Below, piece after piece: positions 3,361-47,693 of a stretch of DNA of 64,000 bases. Each line of letters starts with the position of its first letter. Position 1 is the first letter of the stretch. The position numbers were made by a program, and so were the translations under genes. This DNA is from Sphaerolaimus hirsutus. Taxonomy: Eukaryota; Nematoda; Chromadorea; Monhysterida; Sphaerolaimidae. The stretch covers positions 21,739,792 through 21,803,791 of the forward strand of contig OZ038456.1 of assembly GCA_964036195.1 (NCBI GenBank), in the 5' to 3' direction. The notes beneath the pieces are model-generated. The model had not been told where the DNA came from, did no database searches, and saw nothing but the letters and a program-made list of their open reading frames with translations.

Positions 3361-3537
3361 CACAAAATGGGAAAGATTGGGATGACACACATTTGTGTTC
3401 CTTCAATTTTTTGTATCCTAGTATGTTTTACAAGTGTAAATGTGGATACATCTAAACAACTGTTAGACCAGCCAAACTCAAGTTGAATAACAACCAAAAA
3501 CATCCACAGAAACAACAACAGCAGACACCACTGTCAA

Positions 3538-3653
3538 TTCTGGTTGCGGGCTTCTGCACAGGGTTGGGCATTGGTGCCATTTGCATGACTGCGCTCTACA
3601 TTGGCTACATCTGCTACAGGAAACATCACAGAGTGTACTATTTGGAAAAGTAA
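3538..3653 (+). pseudogene. Transmembrane and tail exon of the decayed lectin copy
   Basis: The exon encodes LVAGFCTGLGIGAICMTALY, continuing into IGYICYRKHHRVYYLEK and a stop: one hydrophobic helix and a short basic tail, as in the copy at 11734-11849. It is open throughout and has the same 116-bp length as that exon. The base before the homologous exon start is A rather than G (CAA instead of CAG or TAG), so the splice acceptor present in the paralogs is missing. That fits a dead copy. The 3' sequence up to about 3720 resembles the 3' region of the copy ending at 11849. Confidence 0.75.
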
Positions 3654-4535: not shown

Positions 4536-6418
4536 ATGGACTTGGGGCGGGGCGTCCCGCTGGCGGCACTCCTCCTGTACAGTGGGGGCGCGTGGGCGCT
4601 TGGCACCAAGCCAACAAATCATGCTGGCACCAGGCCAGCGGCAGGTACAAATCGCGCATCATATCAAGTGAAATCAAGCCTAATTGAGTACATTGAAAAC
4701 ACTCAATTAACTCCCCCCTCGAATAGTACCCAACCCCGTATAGAATCGCACTTTGTCAGTTCAGTCAGGAGAACACACAGGAGGACCTATTCAAGGAGGG
4801 AGTTATTCAAGGGTGGACTTATTTGAGGATATACGGTATGTCGCTGCAAATTGCTGTTAGAAATCATTGCAACACAGGCGCACCAGCAAATTGCGTGCCA
4901 CTCAGCCAGGAACCAAATCGCTGCTTCACAGTCTTGACAAATAGCGGATCTTTCTGGGGAAGTAAAGCTGAGAGCATCTGCAAAGCTAGGGGTGGCACAT
5001 TGCCAATTCTGGACAGTTACAATGCAACGTTTGACCTTGACACACTAGTATTCAACCTCGACGTGTCAACAACCATCAGGTGTCGTTCTCAGACCTTGTA
5101 AAATGCACTGTAACACATCAAATACAAAGTTTCAATAGTATGTAATAAGTCATGAAAATGCCAAACGTCTAGTAAGATTGTAAATTAAAAACTGGATGTT
5201 TTTGACAATTTTCATGACATTTCACTATTGCAGGATTTTTTACCGTATTTTACATGACTTTTAACAATTTGCATGACATTTGTCATTTTACAGGGGAGGG
5301 GATTCTCCTTGACTTCTCTCAATTTGCATGACACTTAACTATTGGCAGGACATTTTACATGACTTGTGACACTTTGCATCACATTTGATACTTGCTGGGC
5401 ATTTTACAGAGTCTGTGAGTGGCACCAGGTGGGAAATGGTGTGGGTAGATGGACATCCTCCAGAGGAATTAACCATTACAACAAGGGATAACTGGTATTT
5501 CAGCAATGGAGAAAAGATCCCAGTGACTGGATTTTGGTACGACAAACAGCCCAACAATTATCCCTTACCCCCTTGTCATTGCGTCGCCAGATCAGTACCT
5601 GTTGGCAGTCATCCTGACTTCGGGAATGGCCTCCAATATGACTATTCATGTGGTCAAAGTGCAATTGCTCGGGGTCTTTCAGTTCACATTATTGTATGTG
5701 AATTTTCGAAAGGTTTGCCTGTTTGTCTGGTGTAGTGATCTTTTTTTCTTTTTTTCCGGTGCGTTTTCCATCACTGGTGTTCAGTATACGGGATGGTGGA
5801 AGCGTCAATCAATGTTTGCATCTGCATTCAGTTTTTGAATGAATTTTCAAATTGGAACTCTGAAAACTGGTTTGTGTGGCCACAATCTTGTGGTAACTTT
5901 TTTACACATAAATTTTGATTTCTCACTGAATATACAAAAAAGGAAAAATGCTTTTTTTACTCGGCCATTGGCGCCTGGCGCCCTTGGCGCCCAGTTTCTA
6001 AAAAGTGCCATGGTGCCATTGGCGCCTGGCGCCCTTTTTTTCTGGCGCTTTTCCATCACTAGCCGGGTATCATTATGTGCGGGCCGGGTATATGTGCGTA
6101 GAAGCGCACCCTCGGTTGATTATATGCGGGGCAAATTTCAGAAAATTCTTAAAACTATGAGAAAAATACCTGAAAGTTATAAAAAATACCAGAAAAATGA
6201 TGCATGCATAGTGAATGAAGTAAACATGAAGAAGAATGAATGAAGAAATATCAACTGAATAATTTGTTTCACGGAGTTGTAAATAGTAAACCCAAGTGTT
6301 TCATCACATTTATATGATAAAATAACCAGCAACAATAGCAGGTACATCATCTGTGACAATGATGACGACAACAACAACAACAACACCAAGAGCGACGACA
6401 ACAAGAGCAATGACAATG

Positions 6419-8191: not shown

Positions 8192-11849
<3,658 letters not shown>

Positions 11850-12816: not shown

Positions 12817-14542
12817 ATGGACTTGGGGCGGGGCGTCGCGCTGGCGGCACTGCTCCTGTGCAGTCGCGCACCCGGCGCATGGGCGCACAGCACCAAGCAA
12901 ACAAATCCTGGCGCCAGCACAACGACAGGTACACATCGCGCGTATTTTTCAATTGCATTTTGCCAAATGTGTAATACAAATTCAAATATACATTCAGAGC
13001 ATAGGCGGCGTAATCAAATACTTGTGCACTTTTTGTAAAGTGGAATTTTTGGTGTCACAAACAGAAATTTCTCTGTCACATTGTGACTTTCACAAGCCTG
13101 TATTGTACAAACAACAGTGAAAGCTCAGGGGTGTTCCCCTCAGGGCACATATACCTAAAGACGGCAAAATGTGCCAGGCACTGTTTTCCGCACCAAAGTC
13201 ACATCGTGATTGAGGCAAAACTGGGAAAAACTATTTGCTAAGATTCATACCACAAGATAGCTGAGATTGTGCTCCTTAAGCATTCACAGCCTCCCAGAAG
13301 GTTCACTGTCATGATTTTATACCTAAGAAACCAAAAAGTCATCAAAAAACTGCATTTTTGAATTCTTAGGTATAAAATCATGACTGTGAACCTTCTGGGA
13401 GGCAGTGGATTTTGAAAGAGAACTATTTCAGCTATCTTGTGATATGAATCAGTTAATAGTTTTTCCTGGTTTCACCTCAATCACAATGCAACTTTGCTGC
13501 GGAAAACAGTGCCTGGCACATTTTGCCTTCTTAGGTATATGTGACCTGAGAGGAAAACCCCAAAAAGTCTCTGGATTCTGATAGAGAACGCTCTCAGCTT
13601 CACAACCATGTGTGTCTTCTGCCTTGTCCTGGACACAGTTAAGGTGTGAATCCGAATGCAATCCGCTGGAATCAGCTCTGCCAGCACGTTTTGGCTTCTT
13701 GGGTAAATTGGTTTCAGCAAACCCCTGAACTATCTGTGGATTCTAAAAGAGCACATTCTCGGCTTCGCAACGATATAAAATAAAGCCTATACATACACTC
13801 AGGTAAAGTTTCAGCCATGATGCAATGACATCAGATGATCAAAATTATGCCTTTTTGATTTCTTAGTTATAAAATCGTGGGGTGAACCTTCTGGGTGGCT
13901 GTGGATTCTGAAAGAGCACAATCTCAGCTATCTTGTGGTATGAATCATAGCGAATAGTTTTACCCAGTTTCGCCTCAATCACAGTGTGACTTTGCTGAGG
14001 AAGACAGTGCCTGGCACATTTTTTTTTTTTTTTTTTTAATTTTTTTGAAAAATGTTTTTTCTTGGAAATTAGGTGGTTTCCCAACTATGGTTTCCAATGT
14101 TTCACATTCAACCTATGGTATATTCAACATTTGCATGTTAGTAAGGTTAAGCATGCAGCATTTTAGTCTCAACTGGTCTGCACAGTTATGTAGTGGTGTG
14201 CACTAACTAGGCTTTTTCAAGATGTAAACAATCACTAAAAATGTGAGAAACAAATTAAAACTTACCTAGATATATAAGCACTGATACAAATTAAAAAGAC
14301 ATATAAGCACTGATACAAAGTAAAAAGACATATTTATTGAGACTTAAAGAAAAATAAAACAAACCAATCCTTATTTGAATGAACCATAAAACAGTCTAAA
14401 ACATTTACAGACAGAGCAAAACCCTGTGTCAGTTCTGGTTGCTGGCTTCTGCACAGGACTGGGCATTGGTGTAATTTTGATAGGAGTGATGTACATCAGC
14501 TATTATTGCTACAGGAGGAATACCAGAGATTTCTATCTGTAA
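12817..14542 (+). CDS. Reduced lectin-family gene: signal peptide and transmembrane exons only
   Basis: Exon 12817-12928 encodes MDLGRGVALAALLLCSRAPG and continues GAWAHSTKQTNPGASTTT, with donor GACAG|GTACAC. Exon 14433-14542 encodes LVAGFCTGLGIGVILIGVMY, then ISYYCYRRNTRDFYL and a stop, with acceptor GTGTCAG|TT. Both junctions are phase 1, so direct splicing would give an in-frame protein of about 73 residues with no extracellular domain. No CTLD or stalk exon is visible in the 1.5 kb between, which is occupied by foldback repeats. It is either a deletion derivative or a gene making a short membrane peptide. Expression is unknown. Confidence 0.6.
13137..13566. repeat. Foldback repeat in the intron of copy 3
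   Basis: An inverted repeat with arms of about 200 bp: TATACCTAAAGACGGCAAAA, GAAAAACTATTTGC and CCCAGAAGGTTCACTGTC on the left return inverted on the right. A related single arm (CTTCTGGGTGGCTGTGGATT, CAGTGCCTGGCACATTTT) lies at 13740-14030. No coding capacity. Confidence 0.75.
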
Positions 14543-24539: not shown

Positions 24540-24657
24540 GGTAAAATGTCTATCCTTCTTTGATACTTTACAGGGCGTTTTACATGACATTTTGACACTT
24601 GTCTTGTCACGTCATTTGACACCTTACAGTGTGATTTACAGGGTCTGGGAGTGGCAC
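24540..24657 (-). mobile_element. Second introner-like element end in copy A
   Basis: Directly after GATCAG, at a position uninterrupted in paralogs (AAACAGCCCAACAAT in copy 1), the - strand continues GTGCCACTCCCAGACCCTGT-AAATC. Arms of TGTCAAATGACGTGACAAG type follow. The other end is not seen, having been cut by an hAT-like element end. Confidence 0.6.
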
Positions 24658-26782
24658 CTGATCTTTGAACCAAAACCCATCGACTGGAATCTTGTTTCCA
24701 TTGCTGAAATACCAGTCATCCCTGGTTGTATTATATGGATCCTTTGAAGGATGCCCATCCACCCAGACATTCACAAACCAGGCGCCACTCACGGACCCTG
24801 TAAAATGCCCTGTAAAATGTCAAAGGTTGTATCAAAAGTCATGTATGTTTTCTTTGTTTTGATTGAACATTTGACATTTGTCGTGACAATTTACTTGACT
24901 TTTGACTTTGTATTTGCTATTTTACATGGCATTTTACATGTTATGCGAGTGGCACCTGTTTATTATGGGATCCGCTAATCCGCTGTTGTATACTAGTTTG
25001 TCAAGGTCGACCGTAGCACCGTGACTATCCAAAATTGGCAAAATGCCACCATTATCTGCGCAGTAGGTCTCAGCGTCGCTTGCCCAGGATTGTCTAAGAC
25101 GCGGCATGATTGCAAAACACCGGTTTGGTTCCCGGCTGAGTGGCTGGCAATTTGCTGGCACGCCTGTGTTGCGGTGGTTTGAAATGACAATTTCCAGTGT
25201 CGAGCGATGCGGCAGCGACACGCATTCAAAGCACACTGGGTTTGTCTTTTTCGCCTTTTACAAGGTGTAATGTCATTGCAGTACCATATTTGTTTTAATA
25301 GAAGGGCATCTCCAATAGAACGTACACTTTTCCGACATTTTGCGGAATAATAGATTTTGCATTATATTTATACCGTATTACCTCGAATTAACCCCCCCTC
25401 GAAATACCCCCCCCCCAATGCAGTGTAAACAGCATGTACACAACAAATACCACAATGTGTGAACTGTATTATACATAACACCAGAGTTGCGAAAGTGTAT
25501 TTACACTTACCCGAAATACCCGGGTAAATGGGTATTTATATTTACACTTACACTTACACTTTCATAAAATACCCATACACTTTTTTTACACTTTCCTGGG
25601 CAAAATACCCGGGTACAGAAAGTGTATTTTTTTCTTTCAGATGGCCCTGTTTTATGCTTTTGAGAAAGCATAAAATAGGGTCATGTACAAAAAATGCATG
25701 GAATGTAGAAAATATGGCAAATGTCCAAACTGGCTTTTGATATATAACCTTTGATCAGTACTCATGGTATTCTACAGTGTCATCATACTTTTGAAAAAGG
25801 ACAAGATCAATGGAAATTCACCAGCTGAACACAAAGTCAACTTTTGCATTGACATTTTTGCATGTCCATTCTTGCTTTGAACCAGTGTGTATCACATTGC
25901 TTAATCAGTAAAATATCAACACTGAAAAAGTGCCATTATTAGGGAACTTCATACCACTACAGTATTTGTTACAGTCTGAAATGTTTCATAAAAGGCTGTA
26001 AAATGTGAAATAATGCATGAAAATGATAAATAATTTGATATAAAGGTGAGAACAGCGGTGTTTTCTGATGCTCAACAGTGAGAGCTCTTTCCAAAAAAAA
26101 ATTTACACTTACACTTTTTTTACACTTTCCTAGGTATTTTTAAAATACCTTACACTTTTGGTATCCATACTCAAAATTTGGAAAGTGTATTTACACTTTC
26201 ACTTACACTTTCCAAAAATACCTGTATTTTAACAACTCTGCATAACACATGCTAAAACTGATGACTGAGTGACGTTAGGGAAAGGTTTATGTGTATATAC
26301 ACTTGTATATGCCTATAAACACTCATACGTCTCTGACAATGTTGTATTTTTCTATGTCTGAGTATGGCAAATTTAATAAAATTTCTGGCGAAATAATAGA
26401 CCCCCCCCCCCCCTCGAATAACCCCCCCCTCGAATTCACCCCCCTCAAAATTTGCTGGCGAAATAATTAACCCCGATGAAGGTATTTCGAGGTGATACGG
26501 TAAATAGAAGGACAGTCTCCAGTGGAAGGGCACAAAGACTGCTGGAATTGTGCCAAATGCATAAAAATACAAAATCTCAGTGGACGCTGTAATCTAGTGG
26601 CTTTGGTGCATTGATTTTGTGATATTTTAACATCAAATCTTGAATGAACTCTATGTATCGTCATTCTATGAACACTTCGAAAAACCTCGACAGAACAAAT
26701 GTTGAGGGCGTATACCTGACGCCGGACCGCAACTGCACAGGAGGACCAGTGCCGCCAGCACGACGCCCCGCCCCAAGTCCAT
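24658..26782 (-). CDS. Lectin-family gene, - strand copy A (3' part missing)
   Basis: Exons on the - strand: 26782-26716 (MDLGRGVVLAALVLLCSCGP, donor TCAG|GTATAC), 25235-24956 (CTLD first half: CFECVSLPHRS, ISNHRNTGVPANC, EPNRCFAIM, ADNGGILPILD) and 24787-24658 (WVDGHP, DDWYFSNG, PVDGFWFKDQ). Phases 1 and 2 match the + strand copies, and the third exon ends in phase 0 at a new introner-like donor after CAG (FKDQ). The rest of the CTLD, stalk and transmembrane exons are not found downstream; the region ends in transposon sequence and a gap. This copy preserves the original start of the CTLD exon (acceptor ACCCAG|TG) that is lost in copies 1 and 2. It is probably truncated, and functionality is doubtful. 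Confidence 0.72.
24788..24955 (-). mobile_element. Introner-like intron inside CTLD, - strand copy A
   Basis: The intron starts GTGCCACTCGCATAAC-ATGTAAAATGCC after AACAG. Its far end carries the inverted terminus GGCATTTTACAGGGTCCGTG-AGTGGCGCC. Here the flanking CAG after the element is CTG, so the in-frame acceptor is probably GTGAG|TGGC inside the terminus. Only 168 bp long, it is the shortest copy. Confidence 0.6.
25371..26502. mobile_element. TACCGTA MITE carrying a nested hAT-like element
   Basis: Ends TACCGTATTACCTCGAATTA and TATTTCGAGGTGATACGGTA. It sits in the signal-peptide intron of - strand copy A, and apparently inside an older CTCCAATAGAACG-type MITE (words at 25295-25325 and 26507-26535). 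Confidence 0.78.
25482..26240. mobile_element. hAT-like element with exact 8-bp target duplication
   Basis: Ends CAGAGTTGCGAAAGTG and TTTTAACAACTCTG. CATAACAC at 25474-25481 is repeated at 26241-26248. It is closely related to 21344-22104, with TTACACTT words replacing TTACGCTT, a CpG-decay-like difference. Confidence 0.88.
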
Positions 26783-29451: not shown

Positions 29452-32400
29452 CTAGTATTTACTCTCGCAGGAAGTACTCTGTGTATGTTTCCTGTAGCAG
29501 ATGTAGCTAATGTACAGCACTGCTATGCAAATTGCACCAATGCCAAAACCTGGGGGCAGTCCCAAGCCCTGTGGGTAAAGTGTTAAGTAAAGTATCAAAT
29601 GTAAAGTGAAATGCAAAGTCAAATGTCAGCTTTCATGTAAACTGTTATGGTAAGTGTCAAACGTAAAATCAAATGTAATGTAAAGTGTCAATTGTGTATC
29701 CAAATCTTTTTTTTTGTATCCAAATCAAAATTTTTTGTATCCAAACTTTATTTTTCGACATATTTGAATACAAAAACATAAGACTTGGATATGAAAAATA
29801 AGATTTGGATACACAACTGACACTTCCTTCTACATTTAACACTTTGCATGAGAATTCACATTTGACTTTGTGTTTGACTTTACATTTGACACTTTACTAC
29901 ACACTTTACAGGGCTTGGGACTGCCACCTGTGAAGAAGCCTGCAGTCAGAACTGTCAATGGTTTCTGCTCGTGTTGCATCTGTGGATTTTATTGGTTGTG
30001 TTTAAGTTCATTCAACTTGAGTTTGGTTGATCTCAAATTGTAAAAAGTCTGTTTGGTTCAACCTCACTCATGTAAAGCATCGTAAAATGGTTCATTTAAC
30101 TTGGTTTATCTTGGTTGGCCTCATAGTTGCATAGTTGTTAAAACGTATTTACTTTTACTCATCAAATAGGCATACTCAAGTACTGAGTAAATACCTTACA
30201 TTTCCTCTGAAAAAGTACCAGTACTCGCTGTTATGTATACTTTTTGACTGTACTCGATTGCAAAAAACGTATTATATATATTCTAGATAGTCTTTTATAT
30301 AGACTTATTTGGGATACTTGGATAATAAGTAAATTAATTTGTTTCCGCTTCCATCTGAAACAAAACTGTTATCCAGTTCTATTATACATATAGGTATGTT
30401 CAAAGTGTGCAAGTAAATATAATACTACAAAAGTGCAATTTAGAATTGGTATAATAAGGTGGAGTATTGATAGCTTTTACATCCCCTGTGAATGGAGGAA
30501 ACCTGTGTTTCAGCTGGAACTACAATGTCTATTTTTCTTATTGCTGCTGCTCTTGTAGTAGCTGATGGTTTTGTTGTTGTTCTCATTTTTGTCACAGATG
30601 ATGTACCTGTCATTGTTACTGGGTATTTTTTCATAATAATGTGAGTAAATGTTCAGGTTTATTATTACCATGTGGAATAATTATACACTGTTGCAAATTC
30701 ATCTGGAGTCACTCCCAAGTCTCCCAGAACCCTGTAAAAAACGCTGTAAAGCGTGAAATACTCTGTAAAATATCATGTGTCATCTAAAAGATCATGTCAA
30801 GCGTCAAATGTCATGCAAATGACCCTGTAAAGTGTTATGTGTATCCAAATATTATTTTATAGTATCCAAATCTTATGTTTTTGTATCGACATGTTATGTC
30901 AAAAAGAACAATTTGGAAACACAAACATAAGATTTGGATATGATAAAATAAGATTTGGGTACACATTACACTTTACATGGACTTTTACAGGGTCTGGAAG
31001 GGATTGCCCCCTGGGAGTATATTAATCCGGTTGAGCAGTGGCCCTTTTTTCTCAGATAAACGGCTGTTAGATAAACGACCCTCTAAAAGTATCAAATTTC
31101 ATTGAATGAACTGAATTGTTAGGAAAACAAATGTGAGACATCTATCTTAAAGCTGAGCAATTTTATGCAAGGAACCCACAATTTTTGCTAAACTTTCCAA
31201 TATAAAATTGCACAACAAACCTGTCTTAAATTCACACACCAGTACATTGGCTGGTTTTATATGTCCATTTGTTGGAAATGCACCACATGGATGGTCAGTT
31301 GCTGCCTTCACAAGTAATATGAAGTTTCTTAATTTTGGTAAGAAATGAAAATTTAAAGTATAATAACATAAAAGTTGCCACAAAATTACAGTAGGATATG
31401 TGACTTGCTAATTTGAACAAAAATATACCGTATTTGCTTGAAAAATGCCACCTTAAAAAATCCCCCTCGAATAATTCCCCCGTTTAATGGGTGAGGAAAA
31501 ATCATGCCCCCAAAATTTGAGGGGGGGGGGGTTAATTCGAGGGGGGGGGTTAATTCAAGGGGGAATAATTCGAGGTAAAACAGGCGTTTGTGTACCGATC
31601 TGAGTTCATGTCCAAATATATTGTATTGATGGGGGGGGGGGGGGGTAGTGATGGAAAAAGCGCCAGGACTTTGGAGCCAAGCGCCAAAAGCGCCATGGCG
31701 TTTTTCCAAACCCCAGCGCTAATGGCGCCAGAGCAAAATGGCACCAAGCGCCAGAAGCGCCATGGCGCTTTCTGCTTTGGCGCTGGCGCTTTGTTTTACA
31801 AAATTTGTCTAACCCCCCCCCCCTCAAAATTCTCACTCTGAAAAAATCACCCCCCGGGGGGTATTTCGAGGAAATACGGTACTTTCAATCGCCAAGCTGT
31901 AAACGCACTGATAATCTGATTATTCTCCGTATGCATCGGCACGGTTTGGGGACGGGCAGGTTGTTCGGCTGGTTGAATTCGTCGTGCGGTGGGTCACTTG
32001 TATGAAACCAAAAGCCATTTTCCGGGATCGCTTTGCCATTGCTGAAAAACCAGTTACTTTTATTTTTTATCTCGGCATCTGAATGGGAACCCTTTTTTGG
32101 GTGTCCGTCGACCCAGATTTGAGCATCGGACGTGGCTTTCTCAGGTACAATCCGATCTACGTCTTGCATTGCATTGACAGAGTGGAGTTGTTAGAAGTAC
32201 TGATATTTTTTGAAAGAAAACGAAAAAATAAAGTATTTATTTTTACTCTCTGCTGAGTACAGAAAACGTAAATAATGTTTTTTACTTTTACTCATGAGTA
32301 AACATGGGTAAATTACTTTCGTTTGCGGATGATGAAAAATGGGTATTTTTGAGACATTTTGTCCCAATTTCCCAAACTTTTTCACCCTCAAATTCACTAG

Positions 32401-45406: not shown

Positions 45407-47693
45407 GGGTGTCGATGTTGTAGATGTTGTAGATGTAGATGTTGTTGGTGTAGATGTAGATGTAATTCTAGTTCGCTCCTTTGGTGGATATTTCTGTCTT
45501 GGTCTGGTGCTAGTTTCCACTGTTGGTACACCTGAAGATGTAATGTTTTATGTCTGTCTCATTTTCAACTTTTTTATGTCTGTCTCATTTCCATGCACGA
45601 GATAGGAAGAAATTATTTACATTTTTCTAATTGTGGGTCATATTTGATGATTTGCAGTTGATGTGGTAAAAAACCATTAACTAGAACCCAAACATGCAAT
45701 GCTAGCAAAAAAAGCAAAGGTTAAACATAACCAAAAAAATATCTTTCAGCAGATAAGACAGCTGAAAATGAAACATAACCATTCATCCTGGCGCCATTTC
45801 TAGTGCCATCCAAAAGAGTGGCGACAGCGAAAATGGCGCCAAACGCCAAGGGCGCCATGGCGCCATTCGAAATAATGGCGCCAAGCGCTAGATGGCGCCA
45901 CAGAAAAGGGCGCGAAGCGCCAATGGTGCTATGGCGCTGGTTCCCTTTGGCTATATTAAAGGGCGCCAGCGCCATGGCGCCATTCCATCACTAACTATGA
46001 TGCAAGAAAAATTTACTAAAATGGATACTGGAGATTTATATTCACATTTGTCAGTGCAAACAAGTCATTATTCACTTCGGTTTGGTAATTTTTTGGGATA
46101 GGGATGGGATCTTGAAATATTGGGAATTTTCAATAACTATTTATTGAAACAATGTGCCCATTTTATATCATTGTACCATGATTCATCATTTAATATTTAT
46201 ATAAGTTGCAAAATGCCAATATCATAGATTGCACATGTTTTTTATGCAGAAAATTGTTCTAGCATAAATCCATAAGACTGAGCTGCCCATAAAAAAATAG
46301 GAATTTGCGGAATGTTAGCTTGTAGCGATTCAGCTTAAAAATGGGGATTTTCTAGGGATCTGGATTGGGGTTGAGAATATTTTACAGGATTTCAGTTGTA
46401 GCATTGGGAACAAAATCTGGACCCAAAATAAATTAATGCTTGCTTTTTTGTGGTAATTAAACATTGATTAGGTCCTATTTAATTTTTTCAGTAACTACAT
46501 CACAGAGATACATGCTGCAAATGAACAAAAACTTACTCATAACAAATTCACAAACAACTACATTGACCCTTTGGTTGTTTCCAACTAATGAACATGGAGC
46601 ATTATATTGCTTGTTACCTCCCCTCTGATATTTATTTTCGATTTTTCTCTGAATGCAGCGGCTTTTTTCCGGATTGTTAGGCTCATTAGGTAACCAAAAT
46701 CCATTTGCTGGAATAGGTTGCCCATTACTAAAGAACCAGTCTTTTTTGGTTATTTTTGTCTGTGTCGGTGATACTTTTGGGGTCCCATCAACCCAGAATA
46801 TGTATGGATATTCGAGAGTCCATTGCATTCCATTCATCATATCATCAATGTCCACCAGTTAGGGATGACTGGAGTTTTTTTTGGATAAACACACAGGTTT
46901 TTTGTTTGTTTTGGATGTTAATTGGTAGCATCAGCGGAATACCAGGGCCTTTGGACCTATGGGGAGGTGGGTGTGCGCTACACTTGTTCCCAGTAAAGAA
47001 AAATGTGGTTTATGGTAGATTACGGTGACCCACTTTTTTACTGGGAACAAGTGTAGCGCACACCCACCTCCAAATAGGTCGAAAGGCTCTGGTATTCTGC
47101 TAGCATCAAATCCGTTTTTTTTAAAGCACAGCCAAAACGTTTAGTATTTACTTATGTGCTTAGGTATTTTGTAATTTTTCACATGTGATTTCTGCTGGAT
47201 ATTTTTACTGGTTTTGTGACGATTTTAGTGTAAATGCTTCCATTTTTTCATGTTAGTGTCATGTTTTCATGTTACCCAACTCGCCCATCTATCCCAGTGG
47301 CAAGATTTTTTGACTACACTGTCCCCTGAACCCTCACCCAAATCGGCTATCTATATATCTGCAGTGATTTTTGAGAAGTTTTACCCCAACTTTTGCTCAA
47401 AATTGCTTACTTTTAAAGAACTTTAAAAAATTGTTTGATAAAAAACCAGGCTGATAAAACAGGGTTGTCAAAAAACCACATTTTTTCCATCCCTACTACC
47501 ATTGCACTCTCACTGTCTAAAAGTGGTAGTTTTCCACCCTCTTTTTCACAATCTGCCCTTGAGAAATATTCAGTATACCACCACTTAGCTCCTGGCGCTT
47601 CATATTTCTGGGCAGCAATGCAGTGTAGTGGTTTGGATTTGAGTGGCTTGCAATTAACTGATATCTTGGTGATTGCCAATGGAATGTGAATGC
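40645..47693 (-). CDS. Lectin-family gene, - strand copy C, with three exonic hAT insertions
   Basis: CTLD exon 47693-46537 (acceptor TTTCAG|GC, donor ATGA|GTAAGT): VNCKPLKSKPLHCIA, CEKEGGKLPLLDSESAMV, [hAT 47495-46860], DIDDMMNGMQW, FWVDGTP, DWFFSNGQPIPANGFW, EPNNP, VVVCEF. The EPN tripeptide is the mannose-type motif, but no WND follows. Stalk exon 45531-44294 is long and Thr/Pro-rich (TTPTTT repeats), interrupted by an hAT at 44939-44439. Transmembrane exon from 40814: FIGIAACGVFCGLGIHAAAF, then GIFMAIFWC, and a tail ending prematurely at 40645 inside the third hAT. Subtracting each element and one target copy leaves the CTLD exon at 513 bp and the stalk at 729 bp, both phase 1 to 1. No signal-peptide exon is found. 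Probably a disrupted gene. Confidence 0.72.
40867..41969. mobile_element. TAGGGTTGG foldback element with nested element
   Basis: Ends TAGGGTTGGCCGCTG and TTTTTTCCAACTCTA. Subterminal words are TTTTTTAAAACG and AACGTTTTTTATTAAAAACG. It contains GCGCACAAGCGCGCAA. It lies in the stalk-TM intron of copy C and hosts 41248-41694. Confidence 0.65.
41248..41694. mobile_element. hAT-like element (GGACGTATCCAGG family), exact 8-bp target duplication
   Basis: Ends CAAGGACGTATCCAGG and CCTGGATACGTCCCTG. ATTCCGTG at 41240-41247 is repeated at 41695-41702. Contains GCGCGCAAGCGCGC and GGCGCCATGGCG words between G-run and C-run blocks. Confidence 0.88.
42050..43300. other. Intronic sequence of copy C with a GATAGATAGCTG element fragment
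   Basis: Lies between stalk and TM exons. 42470-42640 matches the 11866-12260 family in part. 42290-42420 and 43080-43200 are AT-rich ATTTATATATATT stretches. Nothing coding is seen. Confidence 0.45.
43306..43509. mobile_element. Partial CAGTGTCGTAGCCAGG element
   Basis: Left terminus CAGTGTCGTAGCCAGG with a G-run block and TGGCGCTGGTGCCG words. Its right part is interrupted by the element at 43510-43888. Confidence 0.5.
43510..43888. mobile_element. hAT-like element (GGACGTAGCCAGG family), exact 8-bp target duplication
   Basis: Ends CAAGGACGTAGCCAGG and CCTGGCTACGTCCCTG. ATATGTAC at 43502-43509 is repeated at 43889-43896. Interior as in 41248-41694. Confidence 0.88.
44439..44939. mobile_element. 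hAT-like element inside the Thr-rich stalk exon of copy C
   Basis: Ends CAGAGTTGTTAAGATTAC and ACATTTAAACAACTG. Flanks GTCGGTAC (44431-44438) and GTTGGTAC (44940-44947) match at 7 of 8. Beyond it the Thr-rich frame continues (STLTSLTTTTQTYTTTKPAS) to the donor ACAACAG|GTTC at 44294. Confidence 0.85.
45130..45410 (-). repeat. Coding microsatellite (ACAACACCA / ACA) of the stalk
   Basis: GTT-rich on the + strand; on the - strand it encodes TTPTTT-type repeats of a mucin-like stalk. The Val-rich + strand frame is the shadow. Confidence 0.85.
45782..45993. mobile_element. GGCGCC hAT-like element, partial
   Basis: GGCGCCAAGCGC words end in GCCATTCCATCACTA at 45993. The left end is not delimited. 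Confidence 0.6.
46860..47495. mobile_element. hAT-like element splitting the CTLD exon of copy C
   Basis: Ends TAGGGATGACTGGAG and TTTTTTCCATCCCTA. Flanks CCACCAGT (46852-46859) and CTACCATT (47496-47503) match at 6 of 8. Removal restores AMV|DIDDMM in frame. A foldback (about 46938-47098; TGTGCGCTACACTTGTTCCC and its inverse) is inserted inside. Confidence 0.75.

Follow-up and report, generated by a model that had tools for sequence, protein, structure and literature searches.

How does a coding exon that is continuous in the paralogs of a gene come to be split by 378 bp in one member of the family, and is the segment that splits it an intron? The question is raised by a transmembrane exon on the minus strand of the window, i.e., the whole stretch of 64,000 nucleotides that was analysed (C9:21739792-21803791, in a genome of 348 Mb). 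We put at roughly 85% the probability that the inserted segment, hereafter I1, is a non-autonomous DNA transposon (a MITE) that entered the coding exon at a CAG and is removed today as a spliceosomal intron. Gain of this intron by DNA transposition is very likely. The features of the interrupted exon are the following:

29550..29927, minus strand: I1, made of a 375-bp MITE (29553-29927) and the second copy of the CAG (29550-29552)
29927 and 29550, minus strand: predicted donor GT, starting from 29927, and predicted acceptor AG, ending at 29550
29928..29930, minus strand: CAG, the first copy of the target duplication and the last bases of the upstream half-exon
29928..29970, minus strand: 5′ portion of the split exon as far as traced (EQKPLTVLTAGFFT)
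29455..29549, minus strand: 3′ portion of the split exon (GFGIGAICIAVLYISYICYRKHTQSTSCESKY)

Along the minus strand, the order is TTCTTCACAG, the 378 bp and GTTTTGG. The MITE has the ends GTGGCAG...CTGCCCC (in fuller form, GTGGCAGTCCCAAGCCCTGTAAAG...CCCACAGGGCTTGGGACTGCCCC), after which the second CAG is found. An earlier note on this DNA had described a segment of this length with inverted-repeat ends that splits a transmembrane exon, and both its coordinates and its ends were reproduced: complementarity reaches 95% over the 21 nt of the outer arms (29552-29572 and 29908-29928) and 84% over the 73 nt of a second pair of arms. The order of the sequence also confirms that the GT of the element and the duplicated CAG stand where that note had placed the donor and the acceptor, both of which are predicted sites. 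When 29550-29927 is cut out, the junction becomes TTCTTCACAG^GTTTTGG and the protein EQKPLTVLTAGFFT^GFGIGAICIAVLYISYICYRKH (^ marks a boundary here and below), with the transmembrane frame intact; when I1 is left in, the reading frame hits an in-frame stop within the element. The arrangement of I1 and its flanking CAG copies is the sole configuration that allows exact end-to-end splicing, and, outside the element, the site is without any remaining intron sequence. From the frame and this configuration, we infer that I1 is spliced in vivo.

The donor, CAG^GTGGCA, does not fit the general donor consensus strongly. A splice pair internal to I1 (CCT^GTAAAG with TTTACCCACAG^GG) was considered and rejected, as the use of both sites leaves 37 nt and breaks the frame (hand count). 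As RNA, I1 is predicted to fold into a single long hairpin (-187.2 kcal/mol, z -20.6 with 100 shuffles), in which the first two and the last five bases are unpaired.

A genome search with the protein of the transmembrane exon gave 12 matches at 10 loci, eight of them uninterrupted and two interrupted, each of the latter counting as two matches in the total. Three uninterrupted exons lie within the window, and the claim that exact removal of I1 restores a helix like that of three intronless paralogs was reproduced with respect to both the frame and these exons:

3519..3626, plus strand: paralogous transmembrane exon without insertion, TGCACAGGGTTGG at the site
11718..11822, plus strand: paralogous transmembrane exon without insertion, TGCACGGGGTTGG at the site
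14414..14527, plus strand: paralogous transmembrane exon without insertion, TGCACAGGACTGG at the site

The second interrupted locus, L009, is found ~50 kb from the window copy. Since the insertion and its flanks are common to both, the two insertions derive from a single event followed by duplication. The two elements have diverged: L009 has an additional block of ~400 bp, and a 12-bp gap inside the element and smaller changes also separate them. Such divergence, with an open transmembrane exon in either copy, is what an intron would tolerate.

Regarding the host gene, the label of "lectin" comes from the earlier note and is not confirmed by the databases: Pfam (E up to 10) did not recognise the host protein, and a PDB sequence search with it returned a single, unrelated match (E 0.24). 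The region C9:21676488-21918560, which includes the window, holds a cluster of divergent genes with the motifs WVDG...QPNN...VCEF and a lectin-like look; two sequences of this cluster were tested, and neither matched a Pfam family.

The same mechanism appears, from the sequence, to have acted at four sites of the gene family, namely I1 and three others (I2, I3 and I4). The corresponding features in the window, together with a related element near I1, are the following:

5080..5428, plus strand: I2 in paralog 1, a 349-nt predicted intron in phase 2, CAG^GTGTCG...GTGGCACCAG^
8736..9079, plus strand: I2 in paralog 2, 344 nt, inserted as in paralog 1
24782..24955, minus strand: I2 in a third gene, A2, with CTG as the acceptor-side target copy
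24635..24657, minus strand: I3 in A2, represented by its 5′ terminal repeat alone, CAG^GTGCCACTCCCAGACCCTGTAAA following FWFKDQ
30706..31010, minus strand: element related to these, flanked by CAG on either side (GGGGCAATCCC...GGGAGTGACTC) and located upstream of the exon that bears I1, outside the recognised coding exons

The I2 copy at 5080..5428 has related terminal repeats, and its removal restores the frame exactly. The I2 site is also filled in three genes outside this list (L110, L111 and L115). In A2 and in its close relative L111, the acceptor-side target is CTG, which leaves exact splicing without an AG; in L111, an AG within the repeat would preserve the frame with the addition of 9 nt. 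In L110 and L115, it is the donor-side target copy that is CTG and not CAG. The left and right target copies of I2 are, in general, observed to vary by paralog (CAG/CAG, CTG/CAG and CAG/CTG). I3, in phase 0, is complete in L110, has its 5′ end in A2 (24657) and L111, and has a few extra bases at its 3′ end; this end was not found within the window for the A2 copy. I4, in phase 1, was found in L114 on C7, and, as its codon and phase differ from those of I2, we infer that it is independent of the latter.

Seven copies were tested at these further sites (I2 in paralogs 1 and 2, L110, L111 and L115; I3 in L110; I4 in L114). GT...AG is found at the element ends in 6/7 and the frame is restored in 5/7; in the other two, there is too little exon to judge (L115) or the acceptor is lost (L111). 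The predicted splice sites coincide with the element ends at I1, I2 and I4. Empty sites are also available for comparison: two exons of the window (31888-32190 and 46544-46858) lack I2, paralogs 1 and 2 lack I3, and the uninterrupted paralogs at the further sites include C9:21907918-21908346 (query 1-154; part of it is L116) and C9:21918117-21918560 (query 2-154), both being examples among 53 genome matches. Insertion into exons that have intronless relatives, a trait of introners, is found at I1, where 8/10 loci are empty, and, given these uninterrupted paralogs, at I2 and I3.

Six predicted introns were also folded (40 shuffles each), with z from -4.2 to -23.9; these include two I2 copies and an intron with different inverted-repeat ends. 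The latter is predicted at L112:16-213 (C13), in another paralog, where its ends are CAAGTGAATGAGTAAAACAGCATTTAGAAGT / CAAGTGGAGAAGTAAAAAAGCATTTAGAAGT and its z is -4.6, and it is possibly another kind of intron-making element.

The mechanism that we propose for these sites would begin with an insertion that duplicates a 3-bp target, CWG, a duplication that can be read directly from the copies. An element in sense orientation has GT at its start and CCCC at its end, and between two CAG copies it reads CAG^GTGGCAG...CTGCCCCCAG^. The predicted donor is the element's own GT and the predicted acceptor the AG of the duplicated target, and removal of the segment between them returns the original codons. 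The spliceosome would use this element-end GT and this target AG, and the hairpin formed by the inverted repeats would draw the ends of the intron together. Under this scheme, end splicing would be possible only where the insertion leaves CAG on the sense strand, CTG insertions being excluded. Mobilisation would depend on a PIF/Harbinger-like transposase (PHIS) of the NuwaI type.

The 18-nt end ACAGGGCTTGGGACTGCC has 1,628 + 1,662 = 3,290 exact copies in the 348 Mb of the genome and its reversed control has 0, an abundance that exceeds chance; the I1 element belongs to a large MITE family. A related end, GTGCCACTCCCAGACCCTGTAAA, of the kind found at I2 and I3 (family-2), occurs 558 + 568 times in the genome. 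For a closer view, 76 distinct complete copies were drawn from 108 loci (L001-L108) that had been picked for their likeness to the window copy or for an exact match to end patterns. Both ends of these copies are at most 3 substitutions from the consensus and 100-500 bp apart, with at least 60 bp of flank; copies outside these limits, including L009, were left out. The end types are GTGG/GGGG in 55 copies and GTGC/GGGG in 9, and the modal length is 192 bp (18/76). The terminal inverted repeats and/or target duplication by which introners are known are found in this element.

The triplets that flank the element are identical in 46/76 copies, and they are an identical CWG in 44/76. The two target copies differ in the other 30, by one mismatch in 19 and at two or more bases in 11. 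The single mismatch affects the middle base in 16 of the 19 and is A versus T in 13 (CAG/CTG combinations); the middle base may be partly derived from the donor site. A duplication of 4-5 bp (CAGG or CCWGG) was considered and dropped, as more copies agree with a CWG target and symmetrical element ends.

An explanation that is compatible with our reading of I1, and which goes beyond it, is that the elements form a dedicated introner family that prefers genes and is a major source of introns across the genome. The presence of four sites within one gene family, the polar, splice-ready ends of most sampled copies and the hairpins all speak in its favour, and we nevertheless consider it rather unlikely. 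If splicing mattered for most copies, CAG^GTGG would be expected to outnumber CTG^GTGG. In the whole genome, the GT end follows CAG in 371 + 396 = 767 cases and CTG in 395 + 398 = 793, which is a ratio of ~1:1 with no excess of the spliceable type. Similarly, an excess of open frames in the joined flanks was not found in 75 of the 76 sampled copies (one was dropped because of its ambiguous orientation, and the sample is made of copies with ends like those of I1). In this annotation-free test, at least 60 open codons were observed in the GT sense in 6/19 copies flanked by CAG/CAG, 11/24 by CTG/CTG and 13/32 by other combinations, and in the antisense in 7, 9 and 15, respectively. With CAG and CTG counts about equal across the genome and open frames not in excess among the sampled copies, nothing in these annotation-free counts indicates that coding exons contain more than a minority of the copies. 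Additionally, the introns examined belong to one gene family only. A long open frame is formed by the joined flanks of L002, a CTG-target copy where exact end splicing is impossible and with which two other CTG-target copies, L005 and L007, have flanks in common; no Pfam match was found for this frame.

The description of the element as an introner, made in the earlier note, is supported by the sequence for I1, given its terminal inverted repeats, the CAG duplication, the lack of extra residues if it is spliced and the three additional sites in the family; it is not supported for the MITE family as a whole, for which neither a CAG bias in the genome nor an open-frame excess in the sample was found. 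The genome search with the element ends that the note suggested did recover an abundant family. The counts above come near to the outcome that the note itself had set against its proposal (copies almost exclusively outside genes and unrelated to splice sites), as far as the family is concerned and not I1. On present evidence, the element is better described as a splice-competent MITE than as a dedicated, gene-targeting introner.

It is considerably less probable that a plain MITE insertion broke the gene, i.e., that the element stays unspliced and this copy encodes a truncated transmembrane protein. In its favour, read-through of the element meets a stop and open flanking frames are not in excess among the sampled copies. 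Against it, I1 sits in the only configuration permitting exact splicing, neither duplicate has lost the open frame of its exon halves in spite of the divergence of their elements, and five copies at three further sites are GT...AG and frame-restoring. Finally, an old ancestral intron, later overgrown by a MITE and lost from the paralogs, could find some support in the related element upstream, outside the coding exons (30706-31010), but is very improbable, as the termini of the element are the splice sites to the base, the acceptor is the target duplication, no intron sequence lies beyond the element and the intron is absent at 8/10 loci.

Returning to the splice-competent MITE, a source for its mobilisation was sought among the transposases of the genome. 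The DDE_Tnp_4 domain is typical of PIF/Harbinger transposases, and at least 163 matches to it were obtained in the genome. No DDE_Tnp_4 match was tied to the ends of this element, and in the one 900-bp piece inspected (L109) these ends are absent at up to 6 mismatches. The idea that an excess of ~190 nt with TGA codons in the DDE_Tnp_4 matches was this element was dropped, as L109 shows apparent ordinary short introns without such ends. Many of the DDE_Tnp_4 matches have near-identical scores; genes so numerous and so alike suggest recent activity of a PIF/Harbinger-like transposon. As for the host, the genome has Wnt exons (32 matches, best E 3.5e-35, against none in 14 control genomes), and, Wnt being specific to animals, these indicate an animal.

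Among known transposons, those of the NuwaI group (within PHIS, which comprises PIF/Harbinger, ISL2EU and Spy) have been described, in the sections devoted to them, as reported from animals only and as producing 5′-CWG-3′ target duplications; their terminal inverted repeats (TIRs) measure 12-61 bp, with GGG usually as the first three bases, and they are mobilised by a DDE transposase and a Myb/SANT partner protein (Han et al. 2015, PMC4482050). The element described here resembles them in its CWG duplication (identical in 44/76 copies, with 13 more that have A/T in the middle), its animal host, its TIR of tens of bp and one end, which is GGGG here and usually starts with GGG in NuwaI. By contrast, its other end is GTGG or GTGC (64/76 copies with a GGGG partner), and intron-like insertions are a feature here, whereas the creation of introns is unmentioned in those sections (PMC4482050).

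Introners derived from DNA transposons have been characterised as nonautonomous elements with TIR and/or target duplication that insert into exons and leave the length of the mRNA unchanged (Gozashti et al. 2022, PMC9860276). In the portions of that work that concern us, genic enrichment is given for 161/175 genomes, and, among animals and land plants, only two groups with introners are listed, both of them animals. For instance, the legend of its Fig. 2C shows that the introner of Chrysochromulina carries its 5′ site and co-opts the 3′ one, with 4-bp duplications and no TIR (PMC9860276). The likeness lies in one splice site being borne by the element and the other obtained from the duplicated target, both being predicted sites here; in contrast to the introners described there, the duplication here is a 3-bp CWG, the TIRs have a polar GT end, the host is an animal and genic enrichment is not seen in the present sample (PMC9860276). 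The hairpin introners of Amoebophrya were defined among non-canonical introns, and a general mobilisation by transposases was ruled out by the authors in their account of them (PMC7789003). They share with I1 the inverted repeats at the intron ends, the short direct repeats at the boundaries and a predicted stem-loop joining the exons, although here the predicted sites are of the GT...AG type and CWG is the target (PMC7789003). Introners with a CWG target or of the NuwaI group were not found in the titles and first lines of the abstracts of the open-access papers listed in the literature searches. The mechanism itself is known from introners, and its combination with a CWG target from which the junction takes its CAG was not met among those papers.

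How new introns originate has long been asked, and few animals have been reported to carry transposons that make introns. The CWG preferred as a target by a known group of transposons matches CAG, the exon side of a splice junction, and this overlap would give a simple rule, open to testing, for the conditions under which a DNA transposon creates an intron free of cost for the protein. The gene family described here provides a natural series in this respect, as it includes empty sites, sites filled with intact splice sites and sites filled where the acceptor has been lost. As a tentative and so far doubtful extension, a NuwaI-type MITE system in an animal may have acquired ends that are now polar and splice-ready, in which case its sense insertions at CAG in coding exons would be silent introns, and repeated bursts of such insertions would, at least where gene families diverge rapidly, have made introns.
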